Under the pieces are notes generated by a model. The model saw only the letters and a program-made list of their open reading frames with translations. It had not been told where the DNA came from and searched no databases. Shown here in pieces: positions 28,698-35,713 of a DNA stretch of 37,219 nt. Location: positions 1 to 37,219 of IMG/VR virus record IMGVR_UViG_3300047322_000189. One strand, 5' to 3'. Position numbers and translations under genes: made by a program. This DNA is from a virus. Position 1 is the first letter of the stretch. Each line of letters starts with the position of its first letter.

Positions 28698-28819
28698 TCC
28701 AGATCCTTGCGGCGCCGGTACACCCTGGCGCCAAGCGCGAACGCCAGGACGTGTGGCGTGAGATTACCCAATGGAACGTGAGCCACCATCCACATCGCGA
28801 TCGCGCGCAGATGTCTCAT
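28694..28819 (-). CDS. Tiny 41-residue hydrophobic protein coupled to terminase
   Basis: The ATG at 28819 overlaps the stop of the terminase gene (ATGA), and its own TGA overlaps the ATG of the Cys-rich gene, so the three are chained. The 41 residues start MRHLRAIAMWMVAHVPLG, form one moderately hydrophobic helix through LTPHVLAFALG, and end in a very basic R-V-Y-R-R-R-K-D-L-E. A short membrane-associated helix with a positive cytosolic end is likely. No known family is recognised; the double overlap is the main evidence. Confidence 0.55.
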   Translation of the reverse strand: MRHLRAIAMWMVAHVPLGNLTPHVLAFALGARVYRRRKDLE

Positions 28820-30192
28820 AGCCTGATCCCCTTGCGATCGTCTTCCGGCGGCGGAATGTGCCAACCACGTTCGGCCTCATCGGCCGGCGGTGCGCGCTCG
28901 ACGTAGCGCCACGCCAACGACAGATAGCGGAAAGCTGCTGACGGATGTGCGGTCCAATCATGAACGTCAGTGGCGCGAAATGCTTTGCGCTCATCGTCCC
29001 ATTCGCGCCGGTATTGCTCGAGTGCAGCGATACCCGTTTCCTCTGTGCGTGGGTGGAAGATGCATAGCGGCAACGTACGGCGCACTGCGTTGATGCCATC
29101 TTGGAACGTAGCCCATGGTACGAGCATCGGGTTCAGACCGAATGCCTTCATACTTGCCACGCGCGTCCGGCCGGCTCCCCACTCTTTGATCTTTGCGTCA
29201 TGCGGCACCCAATCAGTGCCATCGACCCAGCCATATGTTTTGCGGCGCAGCTCGATCTGTTCGGCAAAGTGCTCGACGTCGCCGCCACTGCGCGCGTAGT
29301 GGTCTAGGATTATTATCTGGCCGCCCTGGAGCTGGAACCACCACACAGACGTGTCATCACGCACACCAAGATCCCAAGCGCGATGTACCTGCTCGCCGGA
29401 GATCGCATCGATGTCGATGATGCGCTCTTCACTGCGTACCTGCGCCATCTCGAGCGCAAAGTACGCGCCCAGGATCGAAGCCTGCCAATCACAGAAATAT
29501 TCCTGGCGATACTGCGCGCGGCCGACATCGGCGCCGTAGAGCGCAGTGTATTCCTTCAAGGTTTCGGCAAGAGCTTCCTTGGTGAGAGCGCCGGTATCAT
29601 CCGCGGTGAGGAGTTGGCTAAACCAATCGGGCGATTGAACTGAATGCTGAAACATGGCGAACGCATGATTGCGTCCTCGGGGAGTAGTGATGAACGCCGC
29701 CCAGCCGTTGTTTTCCTCGAGCATTGGTCGGTGGTAGGCCCAGGCGCTGGGATTAGCGAGCGCCCACTCTGAGTAGACAATGCCGGCGACACTCGCGCCA
29801 ACTGTTGCGTTGTACGTGTCACTACCGATGCATTGCCACGTCGAACCATTCTTGAGCCGGATAAACATTTCGTTGTCGTTAGTGTTAGCTCGGATCCGCG
29901 GTGGGAAGACTTCATCGATGCGTCTCTTTCCTGAGTGTGCGTTGATTGCAGTCCAGATCGCTTTGCGCGACTGATTATATTCCGGCAAGCAGTGCCAGTA
30001 ATTTCCGACACGCTCGAGCGCCGACACGGCCGTGTGGTGCAGACACACTTCGTCTTTGCCGGCGCGACGATGCCAGACAGCCATCGCGCGCTTGCCACCA
30101 CGCGCCAGGTAATTCCAAAGTTTGCTTTGATGCGACCGCGGATGCCATCCGTTGTACGGAATATCAATCTCGTCTGCAGCGAGCAGTGTCAT
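28816..30192 (-). CDS. terL: Terminase large subunit (packaging ATPase and nuclease)
   Basis: The ATG at 30192 overlaps the upstream stop (ATGA) and gives 458 residues. The ATPase half shows the variant Walker A W-H-R-R-A-G-K-D (40-47), Walker B with I-V-Y-S-E-W (138-143, catalytic Glu142) and coupling motif F-I-T-T-P-R-G (167-173). The nuclease half has the RNase-H-like A-W-D-L-G-V-R-D-D (Asp274) and a second acidic/His site V-P-H-D-A-K (His331, Asp332), which together coordinate metal ions. The longer reading from 30276 adds 28 residues inside the small gene and is not preferred. It moves and cuts DNA at the portal. Confidence 0.92.
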   Translation of the reverse strand: MTLLAADEIDIPYNGWHPRSHQSKLWNYLARGGKRAMAVWHRRAGKDEVCLHHTAVSALERVGNYWHCLPEYNQSRKAIWTAINAHSGKRRIDEVFPPRIRANTNDNEMFIRLKNGSTWQCIGSDTYNATVGASVAGIVYSEWALANPSAWAYHRPMLEENNGWAAFITTPRGRNHAFAMFQHSVQSPDWFSQLLTADDTGALTKEALAETLKEYTALYGADVGRAQYRQEYFCDWQASILGAYFALEMAQVRSEERIIDIDAISGEQVHRAWDLGVRDDTSVWWFQLQGGQIIILDHYARSGGDVEHFAEQIELRRKTYGWVDGTDWVPHDAKIKEWGAGRTRVASMKAFGLNPMLVPWATFQDGINAVRRTLPLCIFHPRTEETGIAALEQYRREWDDERKAFRATDVHDWTAHPSAAFRYLSLAWRYVERAPPADEAERGWHIPPPEDDRKGIRL

Positions 30193-30431
30193 TCGTCCGT
30201 CAACATTTTGCGAATGAGAATTTTGATGTCGCCACCATCCGCATCGCCGGCGATCGGCTGTATTGGCCTGCCCCAACCACGCTCGAGCAGAATATTAGCG
30301 GCCGCAACGCTGATGCTGTTGGATTGATCTTTGCCAGGGCTGCTGACAAGCGCAGCCAGCCTCTCGATGCAGCTGTTAGTATGAGCCCTCGCTAGCGACC
30401 GAATGTCGGGCGGTATTCGTTTTCTAGGCAA
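30189..30431 (-). CDS. Small protein upstream of TerL, candidate small terminase subunit, TTG start
   Basis: The product has 80 residues if started at TTG 30431; no ATG fits. It is helical and contains a repeat-like core, LARAHTNSCIERLAAL then VAAANILLERGWGRPIQPI, which I recall in many small genes directly before phage large terminases. It has the charge and size of a DNA-recognition subunit but lacks an obvious helix-turn-helix. The ribosome signal is unusual: a strong AGGAGG is about 18 bases upstream, with the palindrome GGGGTACCCC between. Coupling with TerL through ATGA supports a packaging role. Confidence 0.65.
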   Translation of the reverse strand: MPRKRIPPDIRSLARAHTNSCIERLAALVSSPGKDQSNSISVAAANILLERGWGRPIQPIAGDADGGDIKILIRKMLTDE

Positions 30432-30754: not shown

Positions 30755-30898
30755 CTACACGAGCAAGAACCAAAATCCCAGACCTAGCGGGATACCGAAA
30801 GTAAGCCCAAACACGATTAGGATCTCGGTAAAATCCTTACAAACACCTGTAAGGGAAAGACCAACGAGCAGCCAAATAATCAGCACATTCCACAACAT
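30755..30898 (-). CDS. Tiny two-helix membrane protein coupled to the HTH gene
   Basis: The ATG at 30898 overlaps the HTH stop as TGATG and gives 47 residues ending at TAG 30755. It has two hydrophobic helices, about residues 1-19 (MLWNVLIIWLLVGLSLTGV) and 26-47 (ILIVFGLTFGIPLGLGFWFL), joined by C-K-D-F-T-E. It is too small for an ordinary channel but fits small phage membrane proteins (holin-like, superinfection-exclusion-like or antiholin-like). Coupled expression with a repressor-like regulator suggests a role early in infection or in a lysis/immunity decision. The function is inferred only. Confidence 0.65.
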   Translation of the reverse strand: MLWNVLIIWLLVGLSLTGVCKDFTEILIVFGLTFGIPLGLGFWFLLV

Positions 30899-31134
30899 CA
30901 ATTGTCCCCCCTCTGCCACTTGGGTACCAAAGGCTTTTCATTGTGAGCCACCAACGATCGCAGCAGCAAAGCTGCAGCCACTGGGATCTCCGATTGCCCT
31001 AGGACGATCCTCCTGGCGGTACGTCCAGACAGCCCGATGTACCGGCCGGCGCCCACCTGGGTCATGCCCAATTCCTTGATAATTCTCTTGAACTCTCGCC
31101 CAGACATGGTGCGTTTCGATTGCCATTCACTCAT
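30898..31134 (-). CDS. Small helix-turn-helix (Cro/CI-like) regulator
   Basis: The product has 78 residues. Residues about 10-46 (SGREFKRIIKELGMTQVGAG then YIGLSGRTARRIVLGQ) follow an XRE-type helix-turn-helix: L-G-M-T-Q, then turn, then recognition helix G-R-T-A-R-R-I-V. The C-terminus, IPVAAALLLRSLVAHN, is the usual final helix of phage and plasmid HTH proteins. AGGAGGTTAAAA precedes the ATG. It is the first leftward gene of the divergent region and overlaps the next gene by TGATG. It probably binds the shared operator elements in 31160-31236 and controls both its own operon and the divergent genes. Confidence 0.82.
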   Translation of the reverse strand: MSEWQSKRTMSGREFKRIIKELGMTQVGAGRYIGLSGRTARRIVLGQSEIPVAAALLLRSLVAHNEKPLVPKWQRGDN

Positions 31135-31770: not shown

Positions 31771-31802
31771 CCCCAGCGTCTCCCCAGGCGCTGGGGTTTT
31801 TC
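31771..31802 (+). terminator. Rho-independent terminator of the rightward unit
   Basis: CCCCAGCG (31771-31778) pairs with CGCTGGGG (31789-31796) across a 10-base loop and is followed by TTTTTC. It lies 35 bases after the second rightward gene and abuts the stop of the convergent leftward gene at 31801. On the minus strand the stem is not followed by T residues, so termination is one-directional. Confidence 0.88.
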
Positions 31803-32424
31803 ATGACATCTGCGGGATCTCGTCGTTGAAGGGCACGTCAAACCCCAGCGGATCAAGCGCCTGCAGGGGGTCATCGACCTGGCGCTTGGTGCGCACCACC
31901 GTCACCCCTGGATACGTCAGCTTGGCTGCCACAAGTTCGCGATTGATCTCCAGTAGCCTCGCAATCTCGTCCAGGGTGTAGACCGCGACCTGGCGCTTTT
32001 CAGCGATCACGCTCCTCGCCATGGCGGCATCAGGTACGATCGCGGCCACCGTGCCGTCCTCGAGCGTCAGCTCCCAAACCTGCAGCGGCTTAGGCAGGGC
32101 GCCGGCGGCATGTGCTGCGACGTCGAGCGTCTCCCACGCCAGCATCATGCGGGAGCATTCGCGCCGCATATCCTCGAGGGTGCCCTTCTGGATCGCTGCC
32201 TGCAGCTTGTACCGCTGTCGATCGAATTTCTCCCTCAGTTCAGGACCGACCACGAGGCGCAGGCGATCGCAGCCCCAGTACCACTCGAGGCGCGCTGCCA
32301 GTTCGTCGACGCCATCGAGGTACGCCCGCCCCGCGATGAACGAGCCGTGCGTCCCATCCCACCGCTTGAGCACCCAATCGGGCACCGCGGGCTCCGCCTT
32401 CGCCAAGTTTTTAATTTTGCTCAT
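31801..32424 (-). CDS. Unknown 207-residue protein, end of the early leftward operon
   Basis: The product has 207 residues. The first half is helical with W-x-x-x-x-L and basic stretches (FDRQRYKLQAAIQKGTLEDM). The second half has a small alpha/beta pattern, VWELTLEDGTVAAIVPDAA followed by VAVYTLDEIARLLE, where the last helix may form part of a winged helix or PLxxD-like fold. It overlaps the zinc-finger-like gene by ATGA. No function is recognised; position after a replication gene suggests a replication or recombination accessory. Confidence 0.72.
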   Translation of the reverse strand: MSKIKNLAKAEPAVPDWVLKRWDGTHGSFIAGRAYLDGVDELAARLEWYWGCDRLRLVVGPELREKFDRQRYKLQAAIQKGTLEDMRRECSRMMLAWETLDVAAHAAGALPKPLQVWELTLEDGTVAAIVPDAAMARSVIAEKRQVAVYTLDEIARLLEINRELVAAKLTYPGVTVVRTKRQVDDPLQALDPLGFDVPFNDEIPQMS

Positions 32425-32669
32425 AACCTCACCCCAAGGTTTTGATTGGTTTTGGCTTTTATTTTTTTATCGCGTCTTTTGAAGGAGTTTCGACAATAAC
32501 TGCAAAACCCACTCAAATTTGGAGCCTTTCCGTCAGGTCCGCCAATCGTCTCCACGATAAGTATAGGCGTAATACACACCCTGCACTCGCTAGCCCACCC
32601 AGCTATGCCATCTTGAGAACCATCATCACGAGTGATGACACGATGATAAACACGTTCAAATTTCGTCAT
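32421..32669 (-). CDS. Small protein with a four-Cys zinc-finger-like pattern
   Basis: The product has 82 residues. Two C-x-x-C pairs, E-C-R-V-C (about 29-32) and F-C-S-Y-C (about 55-58), are spaced like a zinc ribbon, and a Lys/Arg-rich tail (RRDKKIKAKTNQN) follows. Such small ribbons in phages bind DNA or RNA polymerase. AAGGAGCGAAC precedes the ATG. The gene begins just downstream of the repeat array at 32730-32869. The metal site is inferred from the spacing only. Confidence 0.75.
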   Translation of the reverse strand: MTKFERVYHRVITRDDGSQDGIAGWASECRVCITPILIVETIGGPDGKAPNLSGFCSYCRNSFKRRDKKIKAKTNQNLGVRL

Positions 32670-32690
32670 GTTCGCTCCTTGCTTTGAGGC

Positions 32691-32710
32691 GCGCGGCCTT
32701 AAAGCCGCGC
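32691..32710. repeat. GC-rich hairpin between the repeat array and the zinc-ribbon gene
   Basis: GCGCGGC (32691-32697) and GCCGCGC (32704-32710) are perfect arms around CTTAAA. There is no T-run after it on the minus strand, so it is not a normal terminator. It is placed 20 bases before the zinc-ribbon gene and 20 after the repeats, and could be part of an origin or an attenuator. Confidence 0.5.
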
Positions 32711-32729
32711 CAGCCTCTCTCTTAGGGTT

Positions 32730-32869
32730 ACTTTCGTTACTTTCGTGTCAATGATTTCAATGACTTACAGCCAGACTCTCGTAAAACGAAAGCGTTACTT
32801 TCGTCCATGTTATCAGATACATAAGACAGCACTTTCGTTTTGACCCCCTTACTTTCGTGCCACTTTCGT
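32730..32869. repeat. Array of ACTTTCGT repeats, candidate origin or operator
   Basis: ACTTTCGT occurs six times on the plus strand, at 32730, 32739, 32797, 32831, 32851 and 32862. A reverse copy (ACGAAAG, 32786-32792) faces one of them to make the inverted repeat ACGAAAG-CGTTA-CTTTCGT (32786-32804). Several copies are spaced near one or two helix turns (9, 11, 20). The stretch is AT-richer than its surroundings and lies just after the primase-helicase stop. Iteron-like arrays next to replication genes are typical of origins; a regulatory array is the alternative. Confidence 0.72.
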
Positions 32870-32881
32870 GACAGAAAACCC

Positions 32882-34915
32882 TTATAAATCAGCAATTTTC
32901 TTATAGCCTTTGATGTGGTTCTCCTTGTCACGAATGTCCTCCACTATCACCTTGTTTGCTAACCATAAATCGAGTAATCGCTCGACATTTTTGGCCTTTA
33001 GTGAAAATCGCAAAACGATGTTGCGAACGGCAGCCCTAGAGCTGTTTGCTGACCGGCAAAATGGTGTGCCGCTCTTCCATTCTTGGTCGATCGCATTCAG
33101 AATTTTACGACCCACATCAAGGTTGGGAATGTCACTCGGTGGCTCCGTATCGGTGCCGTCGATCGCCAGCGAGCCGCGACCCATCGCCAGGTCGATATGT
33201 TTCACGTCGAACGCCCGCGCCCAGCCGGCTTCTCCGTCCTTTACCTTCTCTACGAATACTGAACCTGTAGACGCACCTACCTCGTATCGCGTCTCGATAA
33301 TGAAATCGGCGGCCGCTGGGATGACCGTGGATCCACGGAAGCCACCCTGCTTGTTCGTGTGGTGGATCCCGACCACCACGCAGCCATACCGCTCTCGCAC
33401 CTGGGCGCAGGCGTTGACGAAGATCGTCATGTCCTTCTGCAGGTTCTCGTCGCTGCCGGGGAGAACCTTGGACACAGTGTCCACAAACACGGCGGCGATC
33501 GGGCCGCCGGCGCGCGCCACCGCCGTCTCCAGGGTCGCCAACAGGCGGCCGATATCGTCGCCACTCATGAAATTTATACTTTGCTTGATTAGGAAGAACG
33601 GCGCGCCGTCAGCGTTCGCATTGCGGTTACTCTCCCAGGCGGCGATCCTATACTTCAAAGATGCTTGCCCCTCGGCGCAGATGTAGATCACGGCGCCTGG
33701 TTTTCTGAGGGTATAGCCCCACCAGGAGGGCTGCTTGGTGGTGATCGACAGCGCGATGTCCAGCCCGATGAAGGTCTTCAAGGATCCTGGCGGCCCGAAA
33801 ATGAAGCCTAGCGACTGCTCGACGATAATTTTTTCGACCACCCATGAGGGGTCTGGAGCGCCCTTGATGGCGGCCACGTCGAGCAGCTCGAATTGCTTGG
33901 TTGGGTCGGCCTTGGCCTGCTGCTCGCCTTGGGTCGATGCCGATGCAAAATCAGCCGACCAATCATGCGGCTGCTCGCTCTTAGGGTTAGGCTTGGCTGC
34001 ATCCGCGACCATCTTGGGCGAGCCCCAGTGGCGCACCGTCGCCTTCCACTTGCCCTCCATGGCGGTCATGCCGCGCCCCTCACGCTCGAGGCCGGCGGGC
34101 TTGTCTCCAGGCAGGCGGCTGGTGACGCGGTTTTCGTAGTCGCGGTAGGCGTCCGACAACGCAGCCGACTGCTCGAGCAGCGGCGGCAGGACCGGCGCCT
34201 TGCGGTACAGCTCGAGCACGGCGCGATAGACGATGTCGCGCATCAGCTTTTCGCGGCCGTCCTGCACGTTGCCAAAGGCGTCGTAGGCTTGTTCTGGCGT
34301 GGCTGTAGCCTCTGCCGGCGCCGCCGGCTTGCCGTGTGCCCCCAGGAGGGCTTCCAGCTCGTCCATGAGCCATTGTGGGGCGGTAAGCAGATCCACCTGA
34401 CCTGGCGCGCGCCCTTCCAGCCACCTGTAGCGGCGCCCGCTCGCATGCAGAGACGGCGGCAGCACCGCAAAGCCGGCCTGGCCTCTCACATCGACGTTGA
34501 GGGCTGTAGAGCCATTGCCGATCGATCGGCCCTCGGGACATTGAAAGAACAGCTGCCGGCCACCACCGCCGGTGATCTGCTCCCACGTCTCCAGATCCAT
34601 GCTATTGTTGTGGACTGCCAGGCAGCCGTTCCACCAATTCAGTGCCTCTGGGCCTTTGTAGGTGTCGAGGTCGAGCATAAACCTAGCCCCCGACGCCTTG
34701 CCCAGCACCACGCCAATATTGTTGGTGCGCAGACGGCCGCCTTCGGCGCACCAGGCGGCGAAGGTGGCGTCAGACACCAGCTCGTTCTGGAACTCCTTCC
34801 ATGGGCCCAGCGGCATCTTGCCTTGGCAGGGAATGACCTGGAGCCCGTGCGCGCGGTAGTGCCCAGCCCAGATCCAGGTGGGTTGATCGAACTCAAAGAA
34901 GTCTGCTATATCCAT
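32882..34915 (-). CDS. Primase-polymerase/helicase fusion (Prim-Pol plus RecA-fold ATPase)
   Basis: The product has 677 residues. Residues about 10-190 match the bifunctional primase/polymerase domain: F-M-L-D-L-D (Asp82, Asp84 as metal ligands), GGGGRQLFFQ (the usual sxH position reads Gln121), and FAVLPPSLHASGRRYRW. A linker follows. Residues about 340-590 are a RepA/KaiC-like ATPase: G-P-P-G-S-L-K-T (374-381, Walker A), A-V-F-V-D-T (475-480, Walker B), then V-V-G-I-H-H-T-N-K. The C-terminal 80 residues may be a winged helix. It should unwind and prime phage DNA; the repeat array downstream may be its origin. Confidence 0.88.
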   Translation of the reverse strand: MDIADFFEFDQPTWIWAGHYRAHGLQVIPCQGKMPLGPWKEFQNELVSDATFAAWCAEGGRLRTNNIGVVLGKASGARFMLDLDTYKGPEALNWWNGCLAVHNNSMDLETWEQITGGGGRQLFFQCPEGRSIGNGSTALNVDVRGQAGFAVLPPSLHASGRRYRWLEGRAPGQVDLLTAPQWLMDELEALLGAHGKPAAPAEATATPEQAYDAFGNVQDGREKLMRDIVYRAVLELYRKAPVLPPLLEQSAALSDAYRDYENRVTSRLPGDKPAGLEREGRGMTAMEGKWKATVRHWGSPKMVADAAKPNPKSEQPHDWSADFASASTQGEQQAKADPTKQFELLDVAAIKGAPDPSWVVEKIIVEQSLGFIFGPPGSLKTFIGLDIALSITTKQPSWWGYTLRKPGAVIYICAEGQASLKYRIAAWESNRNANADGAPFFLIKQSINFMSGDDIGRLLATLETAVARAGGPIAAVFVDTVSKVLPGSDENLQKDMTIFVNACAQVRERYGCVVVGIHHTNKQGGFRGSTVIPAAADFIIETRYEVGASTGSVFVEKVKDGEAGWARAFDVKHIDLAMGRGSLAIDGTDTEPPSDIPNLDVGRKILNAIDQEWKSGTPFCRSANSSRAAVRNIVLRFSLKAKNVERLLDLWLANKVIVEDIRDKENHIKGYKKIADL

Positions 34916-34962
34916 GGAGCACCTTGTGTGTACCTGTGAACTTTCCGGTGAGCAGGATTAAA

Positions 34963-34990
34963 GGGTCGGGCGCGTACAACCGCCCGACCC
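34963..34990 (-). terminator. Strong hairpin between the SSB-like and primase-helicase genes
   Basis: GGGTCGGGCG (34963-34972) and CGCCCGACCC (34981-34990) form a perfect 10-base stem with an 8-base loop. On the minus strand it is followed by TTTAATCC, a weak T-run, so partial leftward termination is plausible; no T-run follows on the plus strand. It lies 15 bases after the SSB-like stop and would lower expression of the helicase relative to the SSB-like protein. Confidence 0.6.
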
Positions 34991-35005
34991 TCATCATTTC
35001 ACCAC

Positions 35006-35713
35006 TTAGCCAAAATCGGAAGCGGAGATTGTGCCGGCTGACGGCGCCGCTGCACGTTGACCACCGGTAGCGGGTGCTGCACCGCTGGCCGCTTGTGCTT
35101 GTGGCTGTGTGCTGCCGTTCGTCTTCGGCGTGTGTTGTAAGTCACCACGCGGCACCCAGGCGGCGATCTTGAACGTCGGCCGGTAGTTGGTGCTGCTCTT
35201 TTCGCCGGATCCGGTTTTTACCGGTGACGTGCTCTCGAGCACGAGCACAGGCAACTCGCCAGGGTGTTGATCGACGCCGGCGGCGTTGAACTTGGCTGCT
35301 CGATAGGCTTTGACCGCCTCTTCGATGCCACCCAGAAACGCCTTCGACGTGCCGGCCAACTCACGGATCGGCTTGTCGCCGCCAATATCCTTCGACAGCT
35401 TCACCATGAAACGTAGACCGTTCTTGTGGTTGGTGCTGGGCCGATCGGGGAGCTTGGATCCAAACGGCACCAGCTTGAAATCCGGTGCGGCGCCTGGGAC
35501 AAAGTTGATCCAGCCCACCTCAAGGTTATCGAAGTCTGCGATCGCCTTGAAATTTTGCGTGATGTCGATCGGGTTGCTTTCAAACTTTCCACTGCCAACG
35601 TCGATACGATCGACACGGAAGAAACGTCCAGACCGCGCGTCGTATTTGAGGATGGGGAGAAAGTCGCCACCGCTTGACGGCTCAGTGCTAAAACCAAAAA
35701 GACTTTCACTCAT
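35006..35713 (-). CDS. Putative single-stranded-DNA-binding-like protein
   Basis: The product has 235 residues. The first 180 are beta-rich (strands such as FFRVDRIDVGSGKF, GLRFMVKLSKD and PVLVLESTSPV), then a Pro/Ala/Gln/Gly-rich linker of about 45 residues, then a short ending T-I-S-A-S-D-F-G. A folded beta domain, a disordered linker and a short acidic/aromatic tip is the layout of SSB proteins, where the tip binds partners. The neighbours are nuclease and primase-helicase genes. The oligonucleotide-binding fold itself is not provable by eye. AACAGGAGAACTGGAA precedes the ATG. Confidence 0.6.
   Translation of the reverse strand: MSESLFGFSTEPSSGGDFLPILKYDARSGRFFRVDRIDVGSGKFESNPIDITQNFKAIADFDNLEVGWINFVPGAAPDFKLVPFGSKLPDRPSTNHKNGLRFMVKLSKDIGGDKPIRELAGTSKAFLGGIEEAVKAYRAAKFNAAGVDQHPGELPVLVLESTSPVKTGSGEKSSTNYRPTFKIAAWVPRGDLQHTPKTNGSTQPQAQAASGAAPATGGQRAAAPSAGTISASDFG

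Follow-up and report, generated by a model that had tools for sequence, protein, structure and literature searches.

Introduction

In SaPI Rep and SCCmec Cch2, the C-terminal domain recognises iterons that lie downstream of the helicase's own gene (PMC7581432). In the satellites of Vibrio cholerae, PLE RepA and its origin are exchanged as modules, and their cognate specificity has been proven by experiment (PMC8263062). The origin of pRN1 lies downstream of the Prim-Pol gene ORF904, in a system with a winged helix, an SF3 helicase and a stem-loop, and in RSF1010 the three tasks of iteron binding, unwinding and priming are divided among the proteins RepC, RepA and RepB' (PMC4234260). The PrimPol of phage NrS-1, which is joined to a helicase domain, relies mostly on an 8-nt recognition sequence (PMC8718748, PMC7102993).

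We analysed a virus record of 37,219 bases with tail, head, portal, lysis and terminase-like genes (the window, meaning the whole stretch of DNA under study), in which an array of 8-bp direct repeats adjoins the gene of a primase-helicase. We consider it likely, judging from sequence comparison and predicted structure, that the array is the replication origin of the phage and that the adjacent protein binds the iterons through its own C-terminal winged helix. By analogy, the system probably works like SaPI Rep/SCCmec Cch2 and PLE RepA while combining parts of RSF1010 and pRN1. Comparison suggests that it shares with SaPI Rep/ori and SCCmec Cch2/ori a C-terminal specificity domain and iterons just downstream of the gene, whereas those elements use Rep/Cch/Cch2-type helicases and a separate primase; here a RepA-type RecA-like helicase is fused to Prim-Pol, the carriers are tailed phages, and a conserved spacer element lies between the iteron blocks. 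The covariation of the initiator DNA-binding domain with the origin, and their exchange as a module, resemble PLE RepA/ori, in which, however, the RepA_N domain is N-terminal, the iterons are three semi-palindromes of about 30 bp, and no primase or helicase fusion has been described. Hexameric RepA of RSF1010 (1nlf) is the structure that best matches the helicase domain (E 7e-11), which is AAA_25 by Pfam and matched neither a SaPI Rep/Cch-type helicase nor, by Pfam or structure, an SF3 helicase; instead of three proteins there is one polypeptide, in which the predicted winged helix stands in for RepC. The union of Prim-Pol, helicase and C-terminal winged helix in a single protein, with the putative origin directly downstream, recalls ORF904, but pRN1 has an SF3 helicase and a stem-loop origin of about 100 nt without iterons, whereas the present locus has a RepA-type helicase and iterons, and only a 32-nt palindrome was found to fold. 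With NrS-1 the locus shares the PrimPol–helicase fusion and an 8-nt sequence; the NrS-1 site, however, serves primer synthesis and occurs twice, and the repeats here do not follow the primase domain.

Results

An iteron array beside the primase-helicase gene

The motif ACTTTCGT occurs in six exact copies, all on the plus strand, starting at 32730, 32739, 32797, 32831, 32851 and 32862, and counting over the whole window yielded no exact copy outside 32730–32869. The sequence-only reading had thus been right about six direct copies and their confinement to this stretch; the inverted copy that it had also reported (32786–32793) is inexact, and it had missed an additional direct near copy at 32775–32782. 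The expected count was 0.69 per shuffled genome, and six copies were reached in none of 100 shuffles (largest count, 3). No 8-mer exceeded three copies per 140-bp window throughout 200 Markov-1 shuffles, nor did any in the remainder of the real sequence. The array as a whole is AT-richer, as had been noticed, with a GC content of 0.407 against 0.572 genome-wide, and it starts 12 bp past the stop codon of the Prim-Pol/helicase gene, directly beyond it as described. Because this gene reads on the minus strand, the motif in gene sense is ACGAAAGT. The stretch was taken as noncoding, consistent with the earlier description: the overlapping minus-strand frame 32737–32931, with a GTG start and without a Pfam match, was rejected as a gene. 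The features of the locus are:

32882–34915, minus strand: gene for Prim-Pol, RepA-type helicase and winged helix, the proposed initiator (Pfam, AlphaFold2)
32885–33118, minus strand: coding part for residues 600–677, with the predicted winged helix (about 599–675), the sequence class of which tracks the iteron (AlphaFold2, Foldseek/VIA, covariation)
32862–32869, minus strand: exact iteron ACGAAAGT in gene sense (motif count)
32851–32858, minus strand: exact iteron ACGAAAGT (motif count)
32831–32838, minus strand: exact iteron ACGAAAGT (motif count)
32805–32823, minus strand: weak, degenerate copy of the 19-bp spacer element, TATGTATCTGATAACATGG, matching at 12 of 19 positions (listed element of L002)
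32797–32804, minus strand: exact iteron ACGAAAGT (motif count)
32786–32793, plus strand: inverted near copy of the iteron, ACGAAAGC on the plus strand (near-copy search)
32775–32782, minus strand: near copy in direct sense, ACTCTCGT on the plus strand and ACGAGAGT in gene sense (near-copy search)
32749–32767, minus strand: 19-bp spacer element TAAGTCATTGAAATCATTG, IHF-like, kept across phages with differing iterons
32739–32746, minus strand: exact iteron ACGAAAGT (motif count)
32730–32737, minus strand: exact iteron ACGAAAGT (motif count)
32686–32717, minus strand: G+C-rich palindrome that ends the array and folds as DNA at −16.2 kcal/mol (z −3.0)
31801–32424, minus strand: gene of unknown function, relatives of which follow the array in most loci (rejected as iteron reader)

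At the site of the degenerate spacer copy, relatives usually have a better one, and the 32-nt palindrome matches in position the palindrome that follows their arrays. A palindrome past the array is a more general hairpin than the inverted pair 32786–32804, which had been suggested as one and which most arrays lack. The array region matched no known RNA in Rfam. Cumulative GC skew, named earlier as a check on the origin, has no extreme at the array in the window, nor at that of the complete Rhizobium phage RHph_N65, and lends the origin no support. A scan of the collection for ACTTTCGTNACTTTCGT returned 18 stretches, among them a near-identical relative (L085); no near DNA relative of the window was found among phage records. 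A 13.5-kb contig from another sample (L002/L085, IMGVR_UViG_3300035120_000041) has an identical primase-helicase and the same array.

The layout recurs among relatives

Scanning with the primase-helicase of the window gathered 80 loci; when the 7-mer repeated most densely in each was sought without bias, CGGAGGT and its variants came out repeatedly, located beyond the primase gene. The common layout consists of iterons, TAAGTCATTGAAATCATTG, iterons, usually a second TAAGTCATTGAAATCATTG-type element, iterons and a palindrome. The iterons of the relatives measure 8–10 bp, and their word varies between phages while the spacer element persists. Further scans with the RHph_N65 and L124 proteins revealed the same frame with very different words (GGCGAGGGTT, GGCGTAGGTT, TGCAAGT, TGCACAG and GACCAGACG). 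The array lies at most 130 bp from the end of the primase match at 30 of the 45 loci tallied, the best array being further off at the others; for L004 and L063 this tally took another repeat, and both have repeats near the gene, degenerate ones in L063. In some clades the distance to the primase-helicase gene is 0.3–3 kb, and some relatives show no array in the sequence available, partly because contigs end early. As expected of an iteron origin, direct repeats are clustered in a non-coding stretch beside the gene of the putative initiator.

Cultured phages have the same arrangement. Eight of the nine forward GGCGGAGAT copies in the RHph_N65 genome lie at 34935–35083, immediately past the gene, in an interval flanked by the 3' ends of two convergent genes, and in EBPR siphovirus 5 the array directly follows the gene. 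The circular 38-kb replicon p1 of Caenibius sp. WL has 11 TGCGGAA copies just after an AAA ATPase gene, with a minimum of detrended GC skew about 0.8 kb from the array; this minimum carries little weight because gene direction confounds skew there. Filed as a plasmid, p1 (L328, NZ_CP081845.1) contains capsid, packaging, terminase and integrase genes and looks like a phage-plasmid or free prophage. One clade (L058, L059, L064, L068–L070, L079 and L080) has its iterons in facing pairs, GGCGGAGGTA...TACTTCCGCC, which could fold into hairpins, and no spacer element was detected at these arrays. A plasmid of Methylobacterium currus has GCGCAACA repeats just after an AAA family ATPase gene and with a toprim-domain gene before (L329:6090–6215), possibly a cousin of the same layout.

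Relatives of the 31801–32424 gene occur at 35 of the 45 loci, often less than 100 bp past the array, and follow it even at several loci where the array is 1–3 kb from the primase gene. The array could instead be an operator, at which a repressor or the initiator controls transcription of a flanking gene, rather than an origin. Iteron autoregulation is common in plasmids, the relative of the following gene starts soon past the array in many clades, and a small HTH protein is encoded close by in the window (30898–31134). We nevertheless regard the operator as improbable, because the RHph_N65 array sits between convergent genes. Moreover, no sigma-70-like promoter was seen in the array region, long arrays with a spacer resemble origins more, and the following gene is 91–97% identical across exchanged iterons and has no detected relative at the loci of the N65 group. 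For the same conservation across different iterons, and for its lack of significance in the regression described below, the product of this gene was rejected as the iteron reader. The zinc-ribbon protein (32421–32669), which had been put forward as a candidate binder, was likewise dropped, since it has no relative at any other of the 45 loci examined.

The spacer element

The 18-base pattern TAAGTCATTGAWATCRTT occurs in at least 120 viral stretches, compared with 14 for the same pattern reversed. Among the matches listed, 26 of 124 occurrences are flanked, within 200 bases to either side, by a 7-mer present in four or more copies. Several occurrences adjoin other AAA_25 proteins and, in L202, a Prim-Pol/DUF5906 protein. 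Beside repeats of very different words (CCTGTGA, ACTAGTCCA, GCGTCAGGT, CTATCTA, GTGAGAA, CAGTGGC and ACTGTCGCA), the pattern was observed at L202, L215, L133, L114, L184, L183 and L102/L105. It may mark phage origins more widely. The spacer of the window, TAAGTCATTGAAATCATTG, has one mismatch to the IHF consensus WATCAANNNNTTR on the other strand. The N positions of the consensus are among the less conserved of positions 1–11, and position 12 deviates in 74% of the copies, including that of the window. We put forward an IHF site as a proposal only, because position 12 usually departs from the consensus, although the conserved positions fit its outline.

The predicted winged helix of the primase-helicase

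The primase-helicase has 677 amino acids, with Prim-Pol (PF09250) at residues 19–182 and AAA_25 (PF13481) at residues 347–524. The AlphaFold2 model of the entire protein has a mean pLDDT of 86.5 and a C-terminal domain with the order helix-helix-helix-strand-strand, which was also predicted to be a winged helix when modelled alone. The best Foldseek matches of this domain are winged-helix domains, several of them DNA-bound, with modest E-values (0.01 at best) for a small fold. No solved structure was matched by sequence at an E-value of 0.01. None of the window proteins scanned was recognised as a DNA polymerase.

Iterons change together with the winged helix

In a set of 55 proteins, winged-helix identity of at least 75% always went with iteron cores no more than one mismatch apart (47 of 47 pairs). 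Cores this close were seen in none of the eight pairs that combine N-terminal domains at least 80% identical with winged helices less than 45% identical. In a matrix regression over 36 loci, the iteron distance was predicted by the helicase (beta 0.50, p 0.001) and the winged helix (0.43, p 0.002), and not significantly by Prim-Pol or the following gene. Over 42 loci, with the following gene left out as a predictor, the values were 0.64 for the helicase and 0.24 for the winged helix (p 0.028); these p-values are rough because the pairs are not phylogenetically independent. Because, of all single predictors, helicase distance predicts iteron distance best in the whole set, the helicase part may contribute to the choice of the iteron. 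The co-exchange could in part reflect physical linkage, because the winged helix and the array are often neighbours.

Natural swaps separate the domains further. In L124 and L314 the N-terminal, middle and helicase parts share 92, 93 and 91% identity and the genes beyond the array 91%, but the winged helices only 38%, and the iterons differ (TGTCCAG versus TGCACAG). At the DNA level they are 86.6% identical as far as the beginning of the winged helix and 87.4% again beyond the array, with no significant similarity through the winged helix and array. The pairs L314/L319 and L316/L321 have N-terminal domains 97 and 99% identical and following genes 95 and 97% identical; helicase, winged helix and array have all been exchanged together, and the iterons differ. 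Within L314–L322 and L124, one N-terminal family is joined to two helicase domains that are about 21% identical to each other, even between phages with N-terminal domains 97–99% identical. The N-terminal domain of this group is called primase-like only by position, because that of L314 has no Pfam match. Conversely, the core CGAAAGT is common to the window, L003, L006 and L300, which also form their own winged-helix class, and the Prim-Pol of L300 is only 19–23% identical to those of the other three.

The iterons could instead be template recognition sites read by Prim-Pol itself, as NrS-1 polymerase reads the 8-nt TTTGGTTA when it starts DNA synthesis free of a primer. The equal length of the motif and the presence of a Prim-Pol domain in the window protein would fit such recognition, which is contradicted by the natural domain swaps: nearly identical N-terminal domains occur with different iterons (L314/L319, L316/L321), and the same iteron occurs with Prim-Pol domains 19–22% identical (window/L300, L003/L300). 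Since Prim-Pol distance also has no effect in the regression and NrS-1 has two single sites and no array, we consider recognition by Prim-Pol very improbable. Equally remote is the reading that another phage or host protein uses the array for partition, packaging or some other handling of DNA. Iterons are also present at plasmid centromeres, but the array adjoins the replication gene and not the terminase-like gene (28816–30276), a scan of window proteins showed no ParA/ParB, and a host reader would leave unexplained why the iterons change with the winged helix of the initiator.

Because the winged helix and the array have been exchanged between phages as one unit, we favour the tail end of the protein as the reader of the iterons. 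The N-terminal region of the helicase had been suggested as the binder; given domain swaps with different iterons, the C-terminal winged helix is the likelier one.

Discussion

The interpretation of the array as an iteron origin, first drawn from the sequence of the window, gains support from the recurrence of the layout in dozens of phages and from iterons that change with the predicted DNA-binding domain of the initiator. In this comparison, initiator and iteron change together, as expected of an iteron-type origin with a cognate initiator. In the proposed mechanism, the primase-helicase would bind the 8–10-bp iterons via its C-terminal winged helix, and a RepA-like helicase ring would be assembled at the iterons. 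The neighbouring DNA might then be opened, with help from bending or melting of the TAAGTCATTGAAATCATTG spacer, and the N-terminal Prim-Pol domain would prime, so that the origin could fire in this order of steps. The coding end for the winged helix and the array would together constitute an exchangeable cassette setting the specificity of the origin.

A search of open-access literature found no published account of the array or the spacer element. We regard it as evenly balanced whether these loci represent an undescribed, widespread class of replicons in which priming, unwinding and origin recognition reside in one polypeptide, and whose last approximately 80 residues and array form an exchangeable specificity cassette. 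The cassette would be swapped while primase, helicase and spacer are kept, perhaps escaping origin-directed nucleases, satellites and competing phages.

If this is true, the origins of a large and mostly uncultured group of tailed phages would be readable from sequence alone, and nature would have matched a specificity domain with its cognate iteron in dozens of alleles. This set of alleles would be ready material for learning how a winged helix picks an 8-bp word. The recurrent cassette swaps suggest selection on origin specificity in phages, as has been proposed for PLE satellites (PMC8263062), and would make incompatibility and superinfection between such phages testable.
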